This document shows, piece after piece, positions 2,090 through 63,700 of a DNA stretch of 64,000 nt. The translations under genes were made by a program, and so were the position numbers. The notes beneath the pieces are model-generated. The model was not told where the DNA came from. It searched no databases and saw nothing but the letters and a program-made list of their open reading frames with translations. Each line of letters opens with the position of its first letter. Position 1 is the first letter of the stretch. The DNA comes from Astropecten irregularis (Eukaryota; Echinodermata; Asteroidea; Paxillosida; Astropectinidae), in the NCBI GenBank assembly GCA_963971285.1, contig OZ020246.1:9159217-9223216 (forward strand), in the 5' to 3' direction.

Positions 2090-5000
2090 ATGGCTGAAGA
2101 AGACAATCTTACTAGACAGGTGAACACTTGTTTCTAAATGGGCGTACAGAAACTGAGGGTGTAGTTTGTAAAAAGGGGATTTCGGTGCCCGGAAAAACCG
2201 GCGAAAACCGTACTTGCGAACCTACTCGTCGTACTGACTATTTGTGGGCGTGGTGACTTAATTGGACCCCACCATTGTCATCATTTTAGAATTATAATTT
2301 CATCGAAAACGATTTTCATCAGTAAGTACTAAGTAGGCAAAACCCACAATACTATCCAATCTCACTCACCCACTTTTGTTCATTTAGATGTGTGCATCTC
2401 CTTTCTATTTTTTGTTTCTGCCAGGTGGATGAGATAGAAGCATTGACAGCAATCTATGGTGATGATTGGTGCGTTGTTGATGAGTCTAATCGCATTTATT
2501 GTATAGCCATAAACCAGGATAAAACCAATGCAACAAGTGAAGACCTCAAAATCTGTCTACAGGCAAGTATTTATACATTCATTATTATTTGTCATCCCTG
2601 GTGGTACAAGAGATGTATAGTTTATAACACAAAGAAGAAAATCTGTTGGTTTTGTTAATTAGCTAAACTCTTCTTTTCATTTTGTTCCAGGTTTCTCTTC
2701 CTTCAGAATATCCAAGTGCAGTGCCTCCACTTTATCAAATAAAGTAAGTGATTTCATTTCAACTTTATGTGCATATCAGATCAGAAAAGCAGGAGCTGAA
2801 TTTATAAGATAAAACTAAGCATATAAAAGTACATCTTATTTCATCAATCATTACTGCAAAACAGTTTTATGTTTTTCATTATGATTTTGTTGCTTGTATG
2901 TTACCATGGTGATTGTATCCCAGGGTGATGATTGTATATTTTTCTTTGTAGCGCCCCATGGCTGAAAGATGTAGAGAGGCAAACAGTGGTCCAGAATCTG
3001 GAGCAAGTGTGTAGGTGAGAAGATAATGTATCATATAAACACATGATGAGGAATGAATAGTCCCATCATCATTATCAATGGATCGATCCAGTGTGCCCCT
3101 TCCACTGCACACGTGAGCAGTGAACACATGTTCCTCTCCTATGCTTCACTCCACATTCCTGTTGCGCAAACGTACGTGCGCACGTACATTTGTCGGACTT
3201 AAGTGAATGCATGTCGGACATAAATCACGACTGTGATTGGTCAGAAATAAATGGGGCGGGGCTTAATGGATCGGTGTATTGTTTGCAAGGCAGGTGACCA
3301 TAAAGTTCCTCCATCCAACCCTATTAGCAGCGAGTCTGGCTTTTGTTCCATAATTATGCAAGTAATGCAACTTTGTCATAACCAAAATGATGAAGCTAAA
3401 ATCAATATGTTTTCCTTTATTTCAGCGAGAATTCCGGGGAAAGCGTCCTTTATCTGCTGATCGAGGAACTCAGGGAGCATCTTGCAAAGAGGAAAGAGAA
3501 GCCACGCCCGGATACTGGCAAGCATCAAGGTTGTTCTCAATACTGTGCCCAAGTAGAGATTTCTTTAGTATATTTAAAATAGAAAAATACAAGTAGCACT
3601 TTATTGACTAACTAGAGTTAAAAATAAATATTAAATGATTTTGGTCGGGAAATAGATAATAGAGTTTAAAATGTGCATAAGCTTTTGTAGCAACAACTAC
3701 TTCATCAGAGGCAATGAAGTGGCATCATCAGGCAAGGTATATATATGGGGGCCAGTCTGTGGTCTAGACAAAAAGTAATGATGAGTCACTTATGTAGTTA
3801 TTATTTAAATTATAATTTTTTTATTTTAATTTTAATTTAATTAATTTAATTAATAATTTATTTTAATTTTGCCACTTCATTGCATCTGATGAAGTAGTTG
3901 TTGCTACAAAAGCTCATACACGTTTTAAACTCTAGTATAATAGTCAATAAATGGATCTTGTATTTTTCTATTTATATTGTTATCTGACTGACACGGCTAC
4001 CCACCATTATATTTTGTATATTTAGAAATTGCATGAAAATTGTCAATGGTTTGGAAGTGATCCTAGGAAATTTCATCAGTGGAACTCTAGTGATATAAAA
4101 AAAATTATGATTATCGAAAGCAAAGTCTTGTTTACTGTGTCTAGTGTTTGGATGAGAGAGCTTTCTTGATATAGATGGCTGTCATGAGGCTGACTGAAAT
4201 TATAACCACCATATTGTTTCTTGCAGCTGATAACTCTGTACATGATGGCCAGACATCCTTGCCATCCAGTGAAGACTCCAAGTTTGTCCATGTATTGTCA
4301 GACATAGGCTATGAGATTCCAGACATAAAACATGGTGACACTATCACTGACCGAAGGAGTACATTCCAGGCTCACTTGGCTGCACCTGTCACTACTGTCC
4401 AACAGGTGAGTGGCTGAATGCTGTATGTGGTCTGCAGAAATACTTCACTCACCAAGAAACAGGTGGATGAACCCATGGACCCTTCCGGCCTGTCAATCAA
4501 ACTGTGTGCATTGACCAATTGGAGTCGTTGTCATCCATTACCTCGGTCAAACTCGGTCACATGGTATGTTTAAAACACGTGGCCTTGCTATAGGTGGGCG
4601 GGGCTTAGGAGCAAAGCCGGAACGGTCCATACCATAGTGGTATACTAATGGGAGACTTTGGAGAACCGGTCTTCAAGTCAACAGTGCACGCCGAAACAAC
4701 GCGCGCATGCTCACAATTGTGCGCGCTGTTGACTTGAAGACCGGTTCTCCAAAGTCTCCCTTTCCTCACACATGTTCTGTATGTTCTGTAAACATGTAGA
4801 GAAAGCAGCCTTTCATTTCACATTGAAACAAGATTGATCTCTAAACATTACGCATAGGACTGGAATGGGACTACAGAAAGGCAGTAATTGATGCTTGCAC
4901 CCCATTGGAGTGGAGAAAAAGTCCCTCAAACTGGAACAAGCCTGATGGTCTCTTCACAGTACAAATAGAACTGAGAGGGGTACCTAGTCAACAGCAAGGC

Positions 5001-27700: not shown

Positions 27701-30700
27701 ATAATATTTTACTCTTTAAATATTTATACTTTTACTTTAACGGTTTCTTTATTTCTTTTAATGAGGAAAATAAAGTTACATATTGAAAGCTTCAAAACAA
27801 ATGGCAGCTTTCAATATTGTCTGAACGGTCCATGAATTTATTCTGACATTCTTTTTTAGAGTGGAGAATTAATATTTGAAATCCATAATCAGCATTTATC
27901 ATTACTGCCCCATTACCTGTCACATTTCATCGTCTTCTTTTCAGAGAGGTTTCTTTATTTCTTTTAATGAGGAAAATAAAGTTACATATTGAAAGCTTCA
28001 AAACAAATGGCAGCTTTCAATATTGTCTGAACGGTCCATGAATTTATTCTGACATTCTTTTTTAGAGTGGAGAATTAATATTTGAAATCCATAATCAGCA
28101 TTTATCATTACTGCCCCATTACCTGTCACATTTCATCGTCTTCTTTTCAGAGAAGTACATAATTCTGTTATAATTTGCTTACCCCTCAAAGGTACATGAA
28201 TAAAGGATTGCAAATTTTATTTTGAAATAATGTAATTCAATTTTTATGCTCTTTTGTCATCAGCCCTTGAATGATGTTGGCTTCTGTTGTGAAAATGATT
28301 ATGAATAATAATAAATTTTGTCAAATAAATAATCAACGGTCATTCATAATCATTACTCATTAAAATAATACTACTGTAAATGAACTTCTTCCGGAACTAA
28401 AAATCTGTTTATGTTCTTCAACAATTTGTTTTCATTACAAACAAAATTTTGTCTGGAGCAATCGTCTGAATAGTCACTTCAAGTCTGTACGACCGAACCT
28501 TCCGAGCGGTCTCTAGTCAATTTTCACAGGTTTGCACAGCCCTTGGAATGCAGTAATTAAATGCTTACTTTTACGACCAACCTGTTTTGTATTCAAACAA
28601 ACATGAACATACTTTTATGCATTTACACACCCCAGGTATTGTGTCAATATGCTGGTAGTGAGAGAGTGCGGTGGCCGTATTATTATCAACTATATTGGGC
28701 TTTGACATTGACAGGACTGTATAATTTATAATGCAAGTATGATGCTGAGTGAGTGCGTGTTATAATGAATAATAAATCATTCTTAGTGCTGGCTCTGTGG
28801 CTTTCTATGTAAAAGAGTCATTTCATCAAAATTAGACAGGATAATATCCACGTCAAAGCATCAGCTTGCATCTACACTAAAATGTGCAAATGATGCTTGC
28901 ACATTAGGGAGGTTTCGCATGTGAACGGATACGCATACTCGTTCTTTTAGATATCCGTAAACGTCAACACTCAACAGCCGATCCGGTGTTTCGCAATAGT
29001 GAAGACTATTTCTCACAACGTAGAACCACTTTTGTACCTGACTTTGAGGCAAATTTGGTCTTATTCTGAAGTTTTGAAATGCATAGAAATTACATATTCA
29101 TGTTCAGCAAATAGTTTCTTTTTTATCTAATCATACACATGACCTGAAATGAACAGAGAATTACGAAAATACTGATATTCGCTACGCAACACTTACGCGT
29201 ATCAAGCAAGATATCCGTGCCTTAAAACGTACAACGGATAGCGGAAAAAACGTGATGTCATAAGTACCCAAATACTGGTGACGTACATGTACTGGTGACG
29301 GTCCCTTGGGAAACCTCTCTATTAACATACATGAGTATTCAGTTTTCCTCAGATAAGATATGACAGTGCTTTAACGCTGTACACTTAAACAGTTCTAGAC
29401 GAAACCATGCAAGGGGATATGCCTATGCATAACTGTGGTAAGACTAAGAGGTACCAAATCAATGATCAGGGTCAATGAAACTATTGTCTCTACTGGCATC
29501 AACGCAATGGTCATAATGCCATCATGAAGTTCACGCCCTAGACATAGCCACAAAGAGGAGCACCAAGGCATGACGAGGATTACGAAGACCAGGGGCACCA
29601 AGGCAATAATAATTATATAGCGCATAATCAAAGATCTCTGTGCACTTTACATATTATTATCCCTGGTCATCGGGCCATAATTTACATTCCTGAAACCATC
29701 TCAACTCCCCGGGGAGCATACAGCCCCGGCAACTTTAAAGCGCACAGAGACTAAACAAACCACAAAGTCATCTCTACTCTCACAGGTACCCATTTACACC
29801 TGGGTAAAGAGGAGCAATATGTGACAAAGCGTCTTGCATAAGGACGCAAGCACCACTAGCCCATGGCTGGATTCGAACTCACAATCTGTAGATTGACCAC
29901 AAGACTTTGAGTTTGACACGCCAGACCACTCAGCCAAGGTACCCCACAATAAACTGTGGTACCAAGGAATTCATCTCCATGCCCCAATAATGTTCTTGTC
30001 CTGATCATTCTCCCATCAATCAATGTTTTATTTTGTTGAGCACTACTCACCGTCTTGATCTTCGTCCTGAACATCAAGGTATAGATATTCCAGTCCATGG
30101 CCTTTCTTAGGGTCATCGGTGCCCTGAAGCCTTGATATAAGAGTTGTCTTGCCACATTCATCTTCCCCTGTGAAAAAAAAAAAATTGAAACAGCTAGATA
30201 TAATTTAATTACAACCATTTATGTTTAAAGCAGTCCTTAATCACTCTTTTATCACTTCATCAAGTTGGGCAATGGGCATGATAGGTGAAGTGTGTGTGTA
30301 GCATTAGTAACATTTGATTGACTAGTATTAAGGACACCACCAACATACATGTAGGGCTGGATAGCTTTAGAGTGCCTATACGATATTCTGGACTCTGGAG
30401 GTTGCTGGTTCAAATCCTGCTCCAGTAATTTTTTCTTTGTTCACTTTTCAATGACTTTAAATTCAGTCAGTTTCCCTTGTGATTATTTGATGACATTTGA
30501 TGGTTTTAGTGAGAGACTTACATGTGGAAGTTTATTACATGAAAATTCTGTTTTATGATTGCGACCAATTTTTGAAAAAAGTACAAAAATGTGTTTCGTT
30601 AAAATATATGGAATCTTGTGGAAAGAGGGCAGGGCTTTGATTTTTGAGGGAAATTTTAGAAGATTTCAATTCATGACCACACAGACGGCCGCAGACGAAA

Positions 30701-46487: not shown

Positions 46488-47225
46488 AGACCAAAACAGA
46501 ACAAAACTACGGTGCTCTAGAAGTGCCATCCATCTTGAGACCAAGATAATAATTTATGCTCCAAGACTCCAAGAGTCAAAATAGAAACACTCAGCAATGT
46601 CGGTGTCAACTTCCTGAAATAATTTGTCACAAGCCAAACAATCCTTCTTTTGCTAAAAATAATTTCATTCTGTTGGGAATTGGCTCCTGACCATTGGGGT
46701 CAAGTAGACCCAGTAACTGGGGCGCTGAACTCCCTTTTTGACTTTTGGGGTTGACGGTCGGTCTAGCGCCCCAGTGATTTATATTGGTTGAGATGTGTCG
46801 TACACAGGAAAAACAAAATTTCACGGCACTTTCGCCGAAAATGTCCCCAAATTACACCAAAAACATCACAAACAGAATTGAAACTCGCTCCATTGCTTCT
46901 ACGAAAGTTAGATATGAAATGCAGCATATTCATTTGTACTCACGATTATTCCTTTTGATGAAAATCGACCTTTTCTGACGAATGTCCAGACGAGAACGTA
47001 AAAAACGGAATTTAATTTGTGTGGCTCTGCTCCACACAAAATGGCGGTCCTACGTCATCGCATGAATATTCATTTTGGTAATTTCCATACTAAGCGGACG
47101 TGTCGATACGTAGATCACTTTGCCTCGGCAAAATTCCCGGTCCCATAACAACAGTGCCGTTTGTGACAAGCGCCGCGCTGATTGGTCAATGCGCAAGGCA
47201 GTGCTCGTGACGTCACAGAAACCAT

Positions 47226-47814
47226 GTGCTGGCCATAGTCTGGTTCCCGGACCCCAAAAGCGCCAGACTATTGTCTGTCAAATATAGGGTCCGGTATCGG
47301 CTACGTGTACTGGAGGGTCACGTGACCAAAAAGACCAAGTTTTGGTCTTTTACGGAAAAATCCGAATGATTACGAACTCGTTTTCGTTCAACTTCGGATA
47401 GTAACGTTGACTTTCGGCTATTTCCGACAGGTCACGCGAGGTCACGTAGTTCAGGAAAAGACACGTCATGTAAATATGTTTCATTCCGGCTACAGTTAGC
47501 CCAAATAGAGCATAATTATTGTTCACATACAACAGAGCACTTTTCCTATTATGCACTTTTGAGGAGTTTGTTGTATGGTTTTTTTCCCACCCTTTGATTT
47601 CTTATTCTGTCCAGATAAAATTGCATGTGCTTACAAAAGTGCAAAAATGAATGCTAAAATTGATTCTCGGTAAACGCTAAAACTAGCTTCCGCGCCTGCG
47701 CAGACATGACAGCTGTGTCATTTTCTATTTTTAACCGTAGCCGATACCTGACCTAAGATTTTTAATAAGAGTCGTCAGGGAATCTTTGGGCAGGGAACCA
47801 GACTAGTGCTGGCC
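47226..47814. mobile_element. Inner element 1 (TAGTCTGGTTCCC ends)
   Basis: TAGTCTGGTTCCC at 47236-47248 and GGGAACCAGACTA at 47793-47805. Flanks read GTGCTGGCC on both sides (47226-47234; 47806-47814), a 9-bp duplication. The interior has GGTCACGTGACC. Confidence 0.75.
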
Positions 47815-49166
47815 ATAGAGTTATATTAAGAAAACTAGAGTGCGCACTCACCGTGCCGTGTGTGACGCGCTCTCGGCAACACACGGGGAATCAAAGATGG
47901 CGTCTCTAAGTGGGCAAAACCGTGTAAAATGCCCGGATGTGCTTATTCTTTTACACAGTGCGCTCAGAAAACGCATTACTAAAAGTCGATTTTCTCCAAT
48001 CTTTTTGGGAGTTTCGGCCTTATCGTCATGAATACTACTCATCAATAGTTTGTTTTTGGTATAAACTAGTGCAATTTGAAAAAAATTGCAATAATTGACA
48101 CAAACTCCTTTACATTAAAACTGCCCCTTTCCACTCGAATTCAGCTTTAGTTTAGGATATGCCACTTTTCAAGTCGAGGGCCGGTCATAACTCGATTGCG
48201 CGTCGATAATATCGTTTCTTTAATTGTCAGTCTTAATCTGAAACAAGGAGGGTATCGGGTTTTTATATCTTGGGTCACGTGCATGTATAGTTTAGAGAAA
48301 TGTGGGATGGAACTGAGGCGTAACCGCTATTTGTTGTACTCGATTACAACTACGGATCCAAGTAATTAAATCAGCCACAAACTTGAAACAATACGGAAAC
48401 TTGCGATTTTCGACTTTTCTGCAAGTTCTGAATCAATATATTGAAATACCGTGTGCATTTTTTCCACTGTTTTCTCCAAAAGTATAGTCACCTTATGACA
48501 CTGGAAATTTTCACAGATGACTGTTGCTGTTTCTTTCTTGATATTTTTGCCCACGAATACCTGCATTTCTTTGACAAAAACCAGTTTTTATAAATTATAT
48601 ACATTTAAATAAATAAATCTAATAATAACAAACTAATATGCTTCTGGAGTGGCCAAAATGACATACGGACGGACAGACGGAAGTCGGTATATTAACTCGC
48701 ACTGCTTCGCAGCACTTCGCCAAAAAGCAAGTGCACCTTTAACTGAACTGCGAAACAGCTAATTATTTACAGTATTACTTGCTCTTCACAGTTAATTAAT
48801 TTAACATGTCGAAACAGTATTATGAAAGATCAACACACTGGGAAAGAACAAACTTTTTTGACAAGCTAAAAATGTAAATAAGTAATCTCAGCAATGTTTA
48901 CATGTACATAGCTCTATGTCCATGAATACAGACACTTTATAATTATGTACCGGTAATTGTTTTAGCTCACCAGTACAAGGATTAATTCACTAGGCCTATG
49001 TGTTTACATTGATGAACTTTGTCAATTCCTGTTTTCGTACTCATACTCGCACTCATGGAAAAGTGCTCAGGTACTCGCACTCATAATATTCGTGGTAAAG
49101 TTCGTTCTCATGCCTTCTCACTGCCAAATGAACAAAGATAATAGACTACAAGAGATGAACAAGAGA

Positions 49167-49330
49167 TAATTAGAGACACCATCAACGTAGGGCTGGAAGG
49201 CTCAGTTGGTAGACTAGAGCGCCTGTATGGTATTCAGGAGGTCAACGGTTTGAATCCCGCTCCAGTCAATTTTTCTTTGTTCACTTTTCAATGACAATAC
49301 ATTTTTTGTAAAATCTAGTTAGTAGTTATT
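49167..49330 (+). mobile_element. tRNA-derived SINE (Thr-like) inside the nest
   Basis: CACCATCAACGTAGGGCTGG, GGCTCAGTTGGTAGA (A box), GGTTTGAATCCCGC (B box), then CTTTGTTCACTTTTCAATGA. Confidence 0.8.
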
Positions 49331-49584
49331 TCTTTAAATCTTGCATCTGAGTGACATCTTGCATCATGAATCTTGAGTCATGTCGCCATTCCTGAAATCT
49401 GGACCTGTATTCTTGAAGGAGAGTGCTAAAAAATGAAATTGAAAAAAAGAAAATGGATTTCATCTTTTGGTAGTAATCAACAGACTTGAATATAAATCTC
49501 TTTTGGGATAATTTGGTGGTCCTGAAAAGGGCCATTTTGTTGGTGGTGGTAGCCCTGAAGAATCTTCCATCTTGAAACGTCGAT

Positions 49585-49690
49585 CTTGGATCTTGAATCT
49601 TGAAACTTGGATCTTGAAACTTGGATCTTGAAACTTGGATCTTGAAACTTGGATCTTGAAACTTGGATCTTGAAACTTGGATCTTGTATC
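49585..49690 (+). repeat. 14-bp tandem repeat
   Basis: Seven copies of GGATCTTGAAACTT, nearly perfect, preceded by looser CTTGAATC words. Confidence 0.9.
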
Positions 49691-49811
49691 TTATCTTTAA
49701 TTTTGCATCTGGAATTAGTAAAAATAAAATTGTAAAAAGAAGTTAGTTTAATAAAGAATTAGTTACAACGAATGAAATACGGTAGTCCATGCGATGTTCC
49801 GCTTCATTGTG

Positions 49812-50590
49812 CCGGTGTCATGCCAAAAGGTGTCCGTTGCCAAATAGTGTCCGCTAATTAGCATACTGGGATTTGATTGGCTATGCATCGTTGACGTCAT
49901 ATAATTATGCAAGCTTGCTAAATAGTGTCCGCACTTAGCGTGCGTCCTATGGACTCTTCAAGACTTGCAAGACGTGTCCAAGTTTTTCATTCAAAGTTTG
50001 TAAAAAAAAAAAAAGAGACCACGTTGTGGCTTATAATTTATATCGACGAAATCATCATGTGAAATCTACTAGGGCAGTTAAAAATGATCGGGCTGACATC
50101 AAACTTGGCAGATAGTTTAAGAATAGTGTTCCAATTTCCAATGACGTTATTTTTTATAGAAAGGAAAGGGTTAGCTCGCGGTAGATACAGATAAGGGAAA
50201 ACAAGTGATTAAAGTCACGCAATGTCCTGTTGTTGTTTTTTATCGTAAATGAAAGTGCCTTGTATGTTTTTATTTGTTTATAGCATGCGTATTGTGCTGT
50301 TTGTTTTAACTTCCTGCAAAATATGTATTATTCATTACACCTCTCTATAGGCTCCCTGCAATATAAGGTAGGGCCTACACTGACAAACAATCAGAAAGGA
50401 TCGAGAATAGTACTTATACGTACGCGGCCTACTTCAAATGCACCATGTGCGTACGCATGGGATGTGCTCGGACACTATTTGGCAGCGGACACTATTTGGC
50501 ATGTATATACATGCCAAAAAGTGTCCAGTGTTCACTGCGCATGCTCCGCGGACACTATTTGGCAACGGACACCTTTTGGCATGACACCGG
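49812..50590. mobile_element. Inner element 3 (CCGGTGTCATGCC ends)
   Basis: About 43-bp perfect inverted ends, CCGGTGTCATGCCAAAAGGT and its reverse, at 49812 and 50590. The word GGACACTATTTGGCA is repeated inside near 50478 and in the palindrome GGCATGTATATACATGCC. Target duplication not clear. Confidence 0.8.
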
Positions 50591-52139
50591 TAAAGTGGCA
50601 ACACTATGAGGAAGGTGCTGGTGCCGGTTGCAACTTTTCTAGGATGATCTGACCTGTTTCTTTCATTATTTGATAATTTCCTGAAGTTACCTGGATGATT
50701 TCAACCTCTGACATGATGCGGGAACCAGCTTTGCCGGAGTAAACATCCAGACCTAGATCCAGATCCAAATCCAGATCCAGAGTCGACTAACTTTAATAAA
50801 ATACAAAATATAGCAGCACAAATTCCTATAGCCTTTTTATAGGCCTAACTTAATATTAAAGTAACGTTAACCCCTTCTTACTCCATGAAAAATCGACTAA
50901 ATTTAATGATACATGTATTTTGGTTAGACTAAGCAATACTACTCACTTATGGAATGAAACGTTGTTGGTCTTATTGCTCCGATTCCTGCAGCCAAAGGCT
51001 GCGCAATTTTTGGGCATATCAAGCCATAATGCAAACGTAACACACGTAAAACGCGAAACGTAAACATAAACCCCAAATTAAATGCCCTCTTAGAAAATGG
51101 CGGCCAATTCTTCAATTCGTGACGCGACAAATCAGAGGTGCGCCCTCTAGTTTTTTAATATAACTCTATGGTGCTGGCCCAACTCGTTACGCACGCACGC
51201 AGGGCCGTTGCAGACACGTACGGAGCACGCATTACTCGATGTGCCTATTCAAGCACACACGGTGTACGACTACGAAACGACCAACGGTCGGCCGTACGAC
51301 AACTTGGGCGACCATGCACAACCAACAGACCCGGCCCAACACATGTTGCTATGAATATTCAACGACCTACAATCACGCTCAGATGGTGGCGCAGTTTCGC
51401 GGTAAAATGGCAACTAAAGCTGACCAAAGTTAATATAGAACGACTGCGGAGTCCGTGAGTTCTCGAACATCGGCGCGGCGGGTGACACCACAAAAAATGG
51501 TCAAAAGGTCGTTTTTGGTTCCATTCAAAAGATCGTGGCGAGGTCTGTCAATGATTCGAGTTGCTGAGTATGTGCCCATGCGCGTCAGTTTCATTCATGA
51601 AAACTTCCATTTTTGGTCAGTGCGATGACGTCACATAATGAGATGATCGCGACGCCCTCTTTTGGCCGTTTCGTGCCAATTCGTGTAAGGGATTTTTCGC
51701 TGTGCGCGGAGGCAAAGTGATCTACGTATCGACACGTCCGCATAGTATGGAAATTACCAAAATGAATATTCATGCGATGACGTAGGACCGCCATTTTGTG
51801 TGGAGCAGAGCCACACAAATTAAATTCCGTTTTTTACGTTCTCGTCTGGACATTCGTCAGAAAAGGTCGATTTTCATCAAAAGGAATAATCGTGAGTACA
51901 AATGAATATGCTGCATTTCATCTCTAACTTTCGTAGAAGCAATGGAGCGAGTTTCAATTCTGTTTGTGATGTTTTTGGTGTAATTTGGGGAAATTTTCGG
52001 CGAAAGTGCCGTGAAATTTTGTTTTTCCTGTGTACGACACATCTCAACCAATATAAATCACTGGGGCGCTAGACCGACCGTCAACCCCAAAAGTCAAAAA
52101 GGGAGTTCAGCGCCCCAGTTACTGGGTCTAGGGGTCAAG

Positions 52140-57744: not shown

Positions 57745-60700
57745 ATGGGTGATAACCGGCCGACCAAGTGGACGGCCATCATTGTGACCTGCACAGATGT
57801 GACTGCAGTCCAGCCACTTCAATATGGTGAGGGACCATTCACAATCCTGTACCCAGAATATCCCATTACTTGTAATACACTGCCGATATGTCACACCCAG
57901 AATATCCCATTACTTGTAATACATTGCTGATATGTCACACCCAGAATATCCCATTACTTGTAATACATTGCTGATATGTCACACCCAGAATATCCCATTA
58001 CTTGTAATACATTGCTGATATGTCACACCCAGAATATCCCATTACTTGTAATACATTGCTGAATGTCACACCCAGAATATCCCATTACTTGTAATACATT
58101 GCTGATATGTCACACCCAGAATATCCCATTACTTGTAATACATTGCTGATATGTCACACCCAGAATATCCCATTACTTGTAATACATTGCTGATATGTCA
58201 CACCCAGAATATCCAATTACTTGTAATACATTGCTGATATGTCACACCCAGAATATCCCATTTGATGAAGTACATTTCTGATATGTCACACCCAGAATTT
58301 CCCATATCCACATATCCAAGGATGTACCATATGACTGGAACATCACTCGATCTTATATGAACCCATATCTTATCCCCAAACCTACGACGTCCAGAATTAA
58401 GAAAATTCTAAACAAAATGCAAATTTAAATTGTTTCCATCTTTAATGTTGAAGTAATTACAGGAATATGTTTTCACCAGTAATGTCCGTCTCTTTTGTAT
58501 GGTTATAATACAGAACTGGAAATTCGTCAGAAGAAAGGTTTCATCGATAAAGATGTTCTTCTCCTGACGACCGAGGACCCGCATTTAAGGGTTGGATCAG
58601 GGGGCGCCACTCTTAATGCACTCCTGGTGGTGTCTGAGCATCTAAGCCAACGGCAGGGTTACACAGTAAGAGCCCATTATAGTTACAGTAGGCCCACCCA
58701 TTTTGTTGGCAGTTCAGATTTGGGGGCATTCTGAAATGCATTTTGCAGGCATGCAACTTTTCCTCAGATCAGCTGATTTCCTCTTTTTTCACTTCACTCT
58801 TGTGCCATTGAAAAGTGAAAAACACTGTACAAATTCTGGGATTTCCTCTTTTTTTTGTGTTAAGTCCAAGTTGCATGCCTGATTTTGAACATTATGAAAA
58901 AAAAAGTGTTTCAATACCCAATGAAAATAACCATATGAACACAATTAAAGTATGAAAGATTTAAATGCCTGTATTTTGGCCAAAAGATTACAAAAGAGGT
59001 GGGTTTTTTTTAGCAGACAAATTCAAAATGGTTGTGTGTTTGTGAAGAATGAACAAATTTAAATGTCAGAAACTGTTTATGTTTCAACAGACTTCATTCT
59101 GATTTTTAGAGACATTTTTAAAATAGTTTGCTAATTTTAAATTTATTAATAATTTCTGCCTTACCTTTCATCACAGGTTGTGAATGCGGACGTCCTCCAC
59201 AATTCCTACATTTTAATTCTCCATGTGGTATGTTTGACAAATTCTTCGCGTCCTGTAACGAATCATAGATTTATAAGTTTTAGTTAATCTTTTCTTTAAA
59301 AGTTGAATAAGTTCAATTCAATTTCATTTGACAATGACGTGGATCCTTGAAAATCTTGAAAAAAGGTTTCAGATAGATTTTGGAAGAGATTGGAGGGTTA
59401 GGAAAAAGGATTTGAGACAAAGATTTGATATTTCTGCAGCAGACAAATTTAGAAAGGTTACATGTTTATTTTGCAAACTTTTTTAAACAAAACATTGAAG
59501 TGTTGATCTTCAGAAACAAGTATTTTTTAATTAAACAGACTGATACACTGGTTTTTGTTTTTGGTCAAGGTATGAAATAAATGCTTATAACCATCCCACT
59601 CTTGTAAAATGAGCATTTAAAAAAATGAATCTATATTTTGGATATGTACCAGTTTGTTTGATTTTTAGTCTATTGCATTCAATATCTCCCAAGGCCATCT
59701 TCTGATGAAATTTCAATGCAATCCATTCATGCATCACTGAGCAATTACTGATTATGTGGAATAGTCCATTTTGCTGCCATTGACAATGGTATCGTTTTTG
59801 TTTGGGGGGGGGACACACTGTAGAATAATGAATTCTTTCCCGTTTGTATTCTTTTTCCAATAGGGGACCACGTATCCCTTTGAAGCCTGTGGACGAGCGT
59901 TTGTGAGTCTACCTGCCAAGCACTCATCTGGCTTAGAGAATGGCTTTGAGGGCTTGGTGACCAACTTTGACCATCTTCTTCACTTGGCCACGGATAAGGT
60001 ACACCAGAGTCAAGTCCAAAGATTATATAGCGCTACACGCAAGATGGATAACTGACCATAGAGCGCGTGGTAATTGGCACGGAGGCCGCCATTCTCTATA
60101 CAGATTATACACGATCCGCCATGTTGGTGTGCCAATAGCGAGTAGTTTGGACACGGGACATATGGGAGCTGGGAGATTTATCAAAGAAAAGGGGAGTGTT
60201 AGGCAAGATTTTGGCCCGAATTTGATTGTAACTTATTGTTTATTGTAAATAGAAAAATTTGACATTGGTATGAAGCAGCTGAATATGAAAACGGCAATTT
60301 TTTTGTGGTTTTTTGGACCTAATTTTGCAAGTATCGCACACATCATTCATATCATTTCCGGACGCGGAGAGCCAAAATGGCGCCCATGGCGATTATGTGT
60401 TTCAGGGAGAGTTCCACATCTTGCGCGTAGCGCTATATAATCTTTTGTCAGGGCACCAGACAGATTAACCATGATGGTATTATATCATTCACATCAGTTT
60501 GCAGTAGGCTTATTAATTCTTAATTCATGTGTATTTTATTTGCAGCTTTCCGTTGGGTGTCCCCCTGGTGTTTGGGTCTGTAGCACTGATATGTATCTCA
60601 CTGTGCCCTCACTACCCAAGATGAACTGGGAAGGATTTGACGGAGCCTGTGTCATCGCTGTGCCTGCAACGCAGGAGTATGCTCGTAACCATGGTGTCTA

Positions 60701-63700
60701 CCAAGTCAACAAAGAAGTAATTAAATCCAGCAATTCATTAGTCTGGTTGATAAGCATTTTGTCATTGTCATTGAAAAGTGAACAAAGAAAAATTGACTGG
60801 AGCGGGATTCGAACCGGCGACCTCCTGTATACCATACAGGCGCTCTACCAACTGAGCCATCCAGCCCTACGTTGGTGGTGACCCCAACAGTCAATTATCT
60901 TCGTTCGTTTGGCAGTCAGAAGCCATGAAACCACGCACACACCGTCATACCCCAAGGATCATTTCAATGATACACGCAGCAATGCTGCAACCTGGGAACG
61001 GTACATGGGGGATCGCTCAAAGAGGATACGGCATTTTGTATTGAAAAAGAATATTCCGGTGACTACCGAATGGTTTCTTTCTCATCACCAGGGCGTAGTG
61101 CAGGATATTTTCTTCCATGGCGGTCCAACCGTTATGAAGATGTGTGCGCTGCGTGATGGAACGACAGAAAATGTATCGGACTGCATGGTGCCGTTGGTAG
61201 CAGGCATTGTATTCCTCAGTTCTAGGTGAGTTTATTACCATTCTCAAACTCTGCCGAGCACAGGACATTAGATGTGATAACCTTCACACAGGTTACCAAC
61301 TAGCATTCTGCACAATGCATATTTGCTGTGACTGGTACCCTTCATGATTTGCCTTGAAAAATTGCGGCTTTGTGAAGTCGGATGCCCCTCGGTACACAGG
61401 TAGAGTTTTGAACACAAAGGTCAAAGGTCACTATTGTCATTTAAAGTACAACTGCACAATCGCTCATGACCAGAGGCCGATTTCGCAGCACTGCTAATTA
61501 GCACAGAAATTTGCTAAGCATGACATTTCTGTCTTTAAACAGGGTTAACAACCAAATTTCCATGTGTTGTGCATCACGTGTGATTGCTCTTTGACTGTTG
61601 TTCGCTGACCATGAATATCAAATGGAATTTTAAATGGTGCTTTGTTTTATTGGGCAAGACATTTTTGTGCTAAGCAATTTTTTTTGCTTAGCAGCTCCAT
61701 GAAATTGGCCCTTTCTCGAGTTGTAACGGCAAAAAGAACAGACGTATTTGAATGAAGTATGAATGTTTTTTTGAATGTCTTTTCTTTTTAATTTTTTGGT
61801 ACTCTGCAGAGCTGCCGAGAAATTTCTGTTTCTTCACCTTTTGCCAGGGTTGGATGCCTGTACGTACATTGGCCTGGACAGTGGAGTCAAGCCCATAGAG
61901 GTACATGTCTTGAGAGATATGCACAAATCTATCAGTATCAGTTTATGCCATTTTGGGTATTACAGAGACTTTGTGCATGAGAATATATTGTGTGCATCTG
62001 ATAAACGCTGAATTTTATGCAAATTGGTCCTCATCAGCAATGGCTTCAACTGCATTTCACGAGTTGTGAACAACAGCAAGAATAACAGACGTACATTGTA
62101 TTTGTATTTAGGTTGAAAAGTTGTTTAGTTTGTCATTACTTTGATTGCATGTTTAGGCTAGCTATGAATGACACAAGAAGGATATCATAATCCTCCTTTC
62201 CGATCCATTCGTCTATGCATTCATTTATCAATGCTTTTTTAGATCAGGTTTCAGTTTTGTAACTTATTGAGAACTACTTCGGCAGTATAACTCCAAACGT
62301 GGCACAGGATCTTGTCTTGATTCTCCTGGGATTTGTGGCTGATAAAGTCAAAAGTCAAAGTCGTTAACATCCCACAGGGCCTCTGTAGGGTCAACATACC
62401 TTGATGTTATGATACATTTTGCTCATTTTTCTTGTCTTCCCAGCTGTCTCTCTTCTTTGACATCCTTCTTTGTCTTGCCAAGGACGTCACCCGAGAGGAA
62501 TTTGTGTCCGGTGAAAAGGGCAAGCCATACAATATTGCCCACAACAGGAAGGAGTACGAGCAAGGCATTGTCCGCAACGCACGGGCACGCATGTGGGACA
62601 ACCTCCGCGGAATACCATTGAAAGCCAGTGGGTATACACTCTGTGCTGTTCGTACTGGGTACTTTATAACTGGTGCCCTTGCTCAGGGATGCGCTTATTG
62701 AGGATTAAGCTCTCAATGTTGAATACCGATGAAAGCTAGTGGGTACACTCTGTGCTGTTCATACTGGGCACTTTATAACTGGTGCCCTTGCTCTGGGATG
62801 CGCGTATTAAGGACCAAGCTCTCAGTGTTGAATACCGATGAAAGCTAGTGGGTACACTCTGTGCTGTTCATACTGGGTACTTTATAACTGGTGCCCTTGC
62901 TCTGGAATGCGCTTATTGAGGACCAAGCTCTGTTGAATACCGATGAGAGCTAGTGGGTCCACTCTGTGTCAATGTAGCTGAGTAATGATAACTGGTGCCC
63001 TTGCTCAGGGATGAACTTATTAAGGACCAAGCTCTGTTGAATACCGATGAGAGCTAGTGGGTCCACTCTGTGTCAATGTAGCTGAGTAATGATAACTGGT
63101 GCCCTTGCTCAGGGATGAACTTATTAAGGACCAAGCTCTGTTGAATACCGATGAGAGCTAGTGGGTCCACTCTGTGTTAATGTAGTTGAGTAATGATAAC
63201 TGGTGCCCTTTGCTATGATGCAGAATACCAATGACACAAAAAACTTTTCTTAATTCGCATGAGGACTTAAATTCACGTCTCTGAGAGGTTTTCGTCAATT
63301 TTGTCCCTATGTGAAATGGTGATGACATTGATCTGTCACACCAGTGTCATCTTTGTTTGTCCTTTTTATATAGTAATCATTGAAGATGGGACGTATGATT
63401 ACATGACGACATCCCCCAAGGAGTACCATAGACATGTCACATCTTGCCCTATTCGCGTTGGAGATGACAGTTACTACAAGTGGTCCAATGTGACACACTC
63501 CGATATCCAGGTTTGTGAAATGTTTAGATTCCTCTACAGTCCTGCCAATAAAGTAACCTTTAGCTTCCTGTCCCAAAGTGTGCTGGATGCAATGAAAGTT
63601 TGGCCATTCTTCACACAGTACTTCCTGTTTCGAATGGCCGGATGGCATTCTACTTACAGAGAGTAAGGCCGTGTCCCAATTCTCTGGCTGCGACTGCAAA

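Follow-up and report, generated by a model that had tools for sequence, protein, structure and literature searches.

The window analysed here is a 64-kb stretch of the Astropecten irregularis genome (C9:9159217-9223216; G+C content 39.5%) from an assembly of 475.7 Mb in 168 contigs. Between positions 46696 and 52139 it contains transposable elements inserted into one another. The outermost, called here the outer element, occupies positions 46705..52130 and is 1481 bp long without its inserts. Inside it lie el1 (47236..47805, forward strand, 570 bp) and el2 (47814..51170, forward strand, 3357 bp), and el2 carries a tRNA-like short interspersed element (SINE; 49170..49303, forward strand, outer limits approximate) as well as el3 (49816..50586, 771 bp). 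Loci numbered with an L below are other copies of these elements that were fetched from the same assembly and read. Taken together, the comparisons make it very probable that the nest is real and represents a stack of four cut-and-paste DNA transposons, in which the outer element was entered by el2 and then by el1, and el3 was inserted into el2.

The outer element begins with TAGACCCAGTAACTGG and ends with CCAGTTACTGGGTCTA. It is flanked by two perfect copies of a 9-bp target duplication, GGGGTCAAG (46696..46704 and 52131..52139), as described in the initial annotation of the window. Its 425-bp arms (46705..47129, forward strand; 51706..52130, reverse strand) are inverted matches of each other with four differences over the full length and three over the first 422 bp, in agreement with the 422-bp arms and about three differences given in that annotation. 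A search with window positions 46600-47200 as the query, in which the best 40 of 1526 first-look candidates were scored, listed 42 matches. Excepting the window itself and two short ones, the listed matches start at query positions 94-107, and position 106 corresponds to 46705; the terminus is thus real. Among 18 script-paired ends of other outer copies, ten have a perfect 9-bp flush duplication and eight have none; at least one of the latter (L014) is mispaired, and an alternative right end at 3038 gives a matching GTATAGGCC. Flush matches at randomly chosen pairs of window positions are so rare (12 of 199,676 pairs for 8 bp and 3 of 199,676 for 9 bp) that the duplications in the nest are not due to chance. 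The 9-bp duplications and the 425-bp inverted arms suggest that the outer element is Mutator-like. In one further locus (L023), a candidate outer-in-outer nest has a run of N between the two copies.

El2 has CATAGAG ends (CATAGAGTTATATTAA...TTAATATAACTCTATG) and an 8-bp duplication, GTGCTGGC, the right copy of which is found at 51171..51178; both had been recognised at the outset. Without el3 and one CCGG, el2 is 2582 bp long. When its 5' 627 bases were used as the query (40 matches listed, the best 40 of 122 candidates scored), C21:2703029-2703655 was the only listed match besides the window that was identical to the whole query. The complete sister copy, C21:2703029-2705610, has different flanks and its own 8-bp duplication, GATTCCAA, and ends where an el2 lacking el3 should. 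Another el2 is inserted at a different place in another outer copy (L021) with the 8-bp duplication CCAAAAAT, and a 30-bp el2-type hairpin in L043 is flanked by the 8-bp GTCCTATC, which makes four cases of 8-bp duplications including that of the window.

El1 has the ends TAGTCTGG...CCAGACTA, which are also seen in other copies. Its search listed 43 matches, with the best 40 of 1314 candidates scored, and 40 of the listed rows match from end to end at 99-100% identity. The duplication flanking el1 had been annotated as 9 bp long. It is in fact the 10-bp GTGCTGGCCA, present at 47226..47235 and again at 47806..47815, where it overlaps the left duplication of el2 and the first two bases of el2 itself. 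The lengths of flush duplications at 31 other el1 insertions (34 rows, from which the window copy and two rows that cross-paired ends in L013 were removed; L049 and L013 are one place) are 9 bp in 24 cases, 10 bp in four (the outer copy in L013, L018, L051 and L056) and 7 bp in one (L055). Two insertions have none (L042 and L058), of which L042 looks like a 9-bp case in which one end gained four bases. As these duplications are about 9 bp long, el1 has target duplications of the Mutator-like kind. In L013:5199-7842, an outer element holds an el1 (10-bp CTGAGCGTGA) that itself holds a second el1 (9-bp GTATCGGCT).

The sequence GTGCTGGCC, which is the junction sequence of the outer element at this site, occurs at 47226, 47806 and 51171 and, with both strands of the 64 kb considered, nowhere else in the window. 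In three other outer copies (L002, L005 and L006), the base corresponding to 47234 runs directly into that corresponding to 51171. These copies represent the empty site of the joint el1 and el2 insertion and, together with the empty site of el3 described below, answer, for these insertions, the proposal of the initial annotation that such sites be looked for in the same genome. The presence of genomic copies with the predicted ends of the outer element, el1 and el2, together with these empty sites, also bears out its view that the transposons are nested and that the outer element came first. Several repeat families meet here within 14 bp, which might be expected if the three copies of GTGCTGGC belonged to a cluster rearranged by template switching or repeat recombination, with the ends adjoining each other by accident. 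However, the outer element, el1 and el2 each begin and end at termini also seen in independent copies, which are flanked by duplications of their own in the same length class, and the sites without el1 and el2 or without el3 are clean. The empty sites largely refute an accidental cluster, which is very improbable.

The order of el1 and el2 hinges on the A at 47235, the last base of the left duplication of el1. In the window the outer sequence past el2 continues from GTGCTGGCC with a C (51180), and the A is therefore not derived from the outer element. The base that precedes the TAG of el1 in L030-L058 is C in 13 copies, A in 6, G in 6 and T in 4, in copies located by a TAG-initial pattern, so that the count tests the base outside TAG and not TAG itself. 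As this base varies, ATAG was ruled out as the true terminus of el1, and the A is not a part of el1. El2 starts with CA. The first eight bases of the left GTGCTGGCCA would then be the former left duplication of el2, and its last two would be a copy of the first two bases of el2. On this simplest reading the A in the duplication of el1 comes from the end of el2, and el1 would have been inserted after el2.

The initial annotation had the reverse order, in which el1 was the first to enter the outer element, with the 9-bp duplication GTGCTGGCC, and el2 then entered the right duplication of el1 with the 8-bp GTGCTGGC. Its premise that the duplications reveal the order is sound in principle; it is the A at 47235 that reverses this pair. 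An el1-first order has the advantage that 9 bp is the usual length of el1 duplications (24 of 31); the 8-bp duplication of el2 also fits within GTGCTGGCC, and GTGCTGGC is apparently favoured by el2-type elements, as seen in L019. It leaves the A unexplained, however, because the base before TAG varies and the outer base in the window is C; the outer copy in L027 has an A there, but the window copy does not. This order thus needs an untemplated A, whereas a 10-bp flush duplication extending over the CA of el2 needs nothing extra. As a rough weight, 4 of the 31 insertions have a 10-bp duplication, whereas additional terminal bases are seen in 1 of the 31 and would here also have to be a single A.

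The window arrangement has a parallel in L043, where el1 was inserted across an el2-type end that was already present: el1 lies in the left end of the hairpin, and its 9-bp duplication CTATCCATA includes the CATA of the hairpin. Furthermore, L019 consists of an outer element with an el2-type element at the GTGCTGGC site and no el1. Three points weigh against el2 having come first. A length of 10 bp is found in only a minority of el1 duplications (4 of 31), the ends of el1 are sometimes imprecise (L042, 1 of 31), which leaves an untemplated A possible, and the exact intermediate, an outer element with a full el2 in this orientation and without el1, is absent among the copies read. From the single A at 47235 and the parallels we infer that el1 arrived later than el2, and the reverse order is improbable.

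The C21 sister of el2 makes it possible to place the two remaining inserts. It is identical to the window el2 at 990 of 991 compared bases (38% of el2 without el3). It contains the SINE in the corresponding position, with 100 of 101 bases identical, and the SINE was thus already present in el2 before el2 landed in the window. A similar SINE copy in the window (60794-60866), one of several elsewhere in it, is read by ARAGORN as tRNA-Thr. El3 (TGTCATGCC...GGCATGACA) is flanked by CCGG on both sides (49812..49815 and 50587..50590). The C21 sister is its exact empty site: TGTGCCGGTAAAG reads through with one CCGG. As the sister has the SINE and an empty el3 site, the arrival of el3 is, on this comparison, later than the split of the window and C21 copies of el2. 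The el2 in L021 is also without el3, with small differences nearby. The initial annotation had placed a third inverted-repeat element and a SINE in el2, and both are there; if it is read as making the SINE a late local arrival, that part does not stand, because the sister shares the SINE. About 756 bases of the el2 in L021 (L021:4376-5131) have no match in the window el2, and conversely the SINE-bearing part of the window el2 (48728-49524) has none in that of L021. Positions 48443-48583 of the window, also inside el2, are a dispersed repeat, of which the window holds four other, diverged relatives that are 79-82% alike.

The assembly of the nest can then be described as a series of steps. A SINE would have entered the el2 lineage before any of the events at this locus. 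The Mutator-like outer element would then have entered the host sequence with the duplication GGGGTCAAG. The SINE-bearing el2 would have followed, landing in the outer element at GTGCTGGC and duplicating 8 bp, and el1 would have been inserted across the junction of the outer element and el2, its 10-bp duplication copying the first two bases of el2. These two steps have their empty site jointly. El3 would have entered el2 at CCGG, a step that has its own empty site and is dated only as being after the parting of el2 from its C21 sister. The transposases would presumably have been supplied in trans from elsewhere.

The substitutions in the elements are in line with this order, as private changes number five in 1481 bp in the outer element and none in 570 bp in el1. 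The window el1 departs from the majority sequence of its family at one position, and because other copies share this difference, the el1 insertion is, judged from its sequence, young. In alignments with the window copy, its inserts left out, twelve outer copies diverge from it by 0.8-3.2%, and L002 (0.8%) and L005 (0.9%) are the nearest of the twelve. The likeness of the two arms had been taken as a sign of a recent start or of gene conversion. Of the four arm differences, the fourth being at 47127, the three within the first 422 bases (46843, 46913 and 47093) were compared with other copies: 46843 and 46913 are private to the window copy, and 47093 is shared with L002 and L005. On this comparison, arm-to-arm identity is a poor clock.

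No transposase was recognised, in accordance with the initial annotation, in a thin test against Pfam: of the seven peptides scanned, five lay within el2, one crossed its right end and one was from el1, and none reached a curated cut-off. No autonomous partner came up in the genome searches with the outer element, el1 and el2. A THAP-like N-terminus considered in el2, based on a short cysteine pair near 47929, was dropped as it had no Pfam match. Open frames beyond the left end of the outer element in L009 were also considered; the longest runs for 622 aa from stop to stop and, by eye, is unlike a transposase, without a family search. A literature search with the element termini as text gave no match.

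Several known systems can nevertheless be compared with the nest. El2, with its 8-bp duplications, is a candidate for a P-type or a hAT-type element. In the parts of the accounts available, P-type elements (PMC7776569, PMC10983969) are similar to el2 in having 8-bp duplications, short inverted ends and internally deleted miniatures such as that in L019. Their subterminal inverted repeats of 11-12 bp are described in the same parts (PMC7776569, PMC10983969), whereas el2 has a single pair of 10-mers beyond the terminal repeat as a candidate for such a repeat. The Tm1 Mutator/Foldback family of root-knot nematodes has duplications of 8-10 bp, mostly 9 bp, in 45 of 53 elements, according to the portion of the report available (PMC3169594). 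Both Tm1 (PMC3169594) and maize Mu (PMC2774946), as far as these sources were accessible, resemble the outer element in their duplications of about 9 bp and their long inverted arms. The accessible part on Tm1 also describes non-autonomous members and one copy that holds a second, unrelated element, as in the nest here (PMC3169594). The terminal sequences given in these partial accounts of Mutator-like systems differ from those of the nest, in which no transposase was recognised and the inverted ends of el1 are short.

El3 has inverted ends containing 17-bp repeats, which form an exact match of 43 bp including a few flanking bases, or of 50 bp at 94%. Ginger1 elements, in the available part of their description, have a 4-bp duplication of CCGG or CCGT, TGTNR ends, inverted ends of 40-270 bp and full lengths of about 2.6-7 kb (PMC2836005). 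El3 is similar in its CCGG duplication, its TGTCA end, which fits TGTNR, and its inverted ends of about 40 bp, at the lower limit of the range in that part of the source (PMC2836005). It differs from the elements described there (PMC2836005) in being only 771 bp long, and no integrase-like gene was noticed in it, without a family-library scan of el3. The bases of el3 also fit a 2-bp CG duplication with GTGTC..GACAC ends, and the 4-bp length comes from one insertion. El3 may thus be called Ginger1-like, on the ends of this single insertion.

The GTGCTGGC site of the outer element can be read in 26 other outer copies, which were chosen for similarity to its left portion irrespective of their el2 content. 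Overlapping loci were entered once in this count, which comprises 26 places found by pattern including the window, together with L026, which the pattern missed, and leaves out two copies without the site (L020 and one in L025). The site is unbroken in 23 copies, three of which have a nearby substitution (L016, L027 and one in L017), is filled in one (L019) and has six extra bases in two (L015 and L026). In L019, which has no el1, the same GTGCTGGC is occupied by an el2-type element of 215 bp, reversed and internally deleted to a miniature. As its orientation is opposite to that of the window el2, its insertion was most simply separate. Three el2-type insertions are thus found in outer copies (the window, L019 and L021), and two of them share one place among about 1470. 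With even targeting such a coincidence would be unlikely, about 3 in 1470, although the numbers are small.

The GTGCTGGC site may therefore be a hotspot for el2-type elements. The six extra bases are an exact tandem duplication of GTGCTG in L026 and a near-exact 6-bp tandem duplication in L015, and could be either departure scars or plain slippage. A tentative and rather doubtful extension is that GTGCTGGC serves as a recurrent docking and departure site of el2-type elements, that el1 favours el2-type termini, and that nests assemble in a preferred order. It is a serious possibility, somewhat short of an even chance, that there is no hotspot: L019 and the window would share an old insertion or coincide, and the changes in L015 and L026 would be tandem slippage. 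The exact and near-exact tandem form of these changes and the small numbers are consistent with this, as is the fact that outer copies inherit features from their source copies. It accords less well with the reversed, 215-bp deletion form of the L019 insert and with both 6-bp changes lying exactly on the insertion site. Elsewhere, two copies of another repeat (ATTCATTACCCGCTACC) each hold an el1 (L034 and L044), at points within a few bases of each other, which is a second hint of el1 revisiting the same targets.

The window also contains repeats outside the nest. At 27742-28153 a 206-bp unit occurs twice in tandem with a 100% match, either through a duplication of very recent date or as an artefact of the assembly. 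Minisatellites are found at 57851-58305 (44-bp unit, 10.4 copies) and 62610-63176 (104-bp unit, 5.3 copies).

Nested transposons are commonplace, and the present nest illustrates, as a clean worked case, how one base beside an insertion can reverse the order in which the elements seem to have arrived, and why nests should be compared with further copies of each of their elements. If the GTGCTGGC hotspot were to hold genome-wide, it would provide a direct test of whether nests of transposons are built up step by step through preferred targeting.

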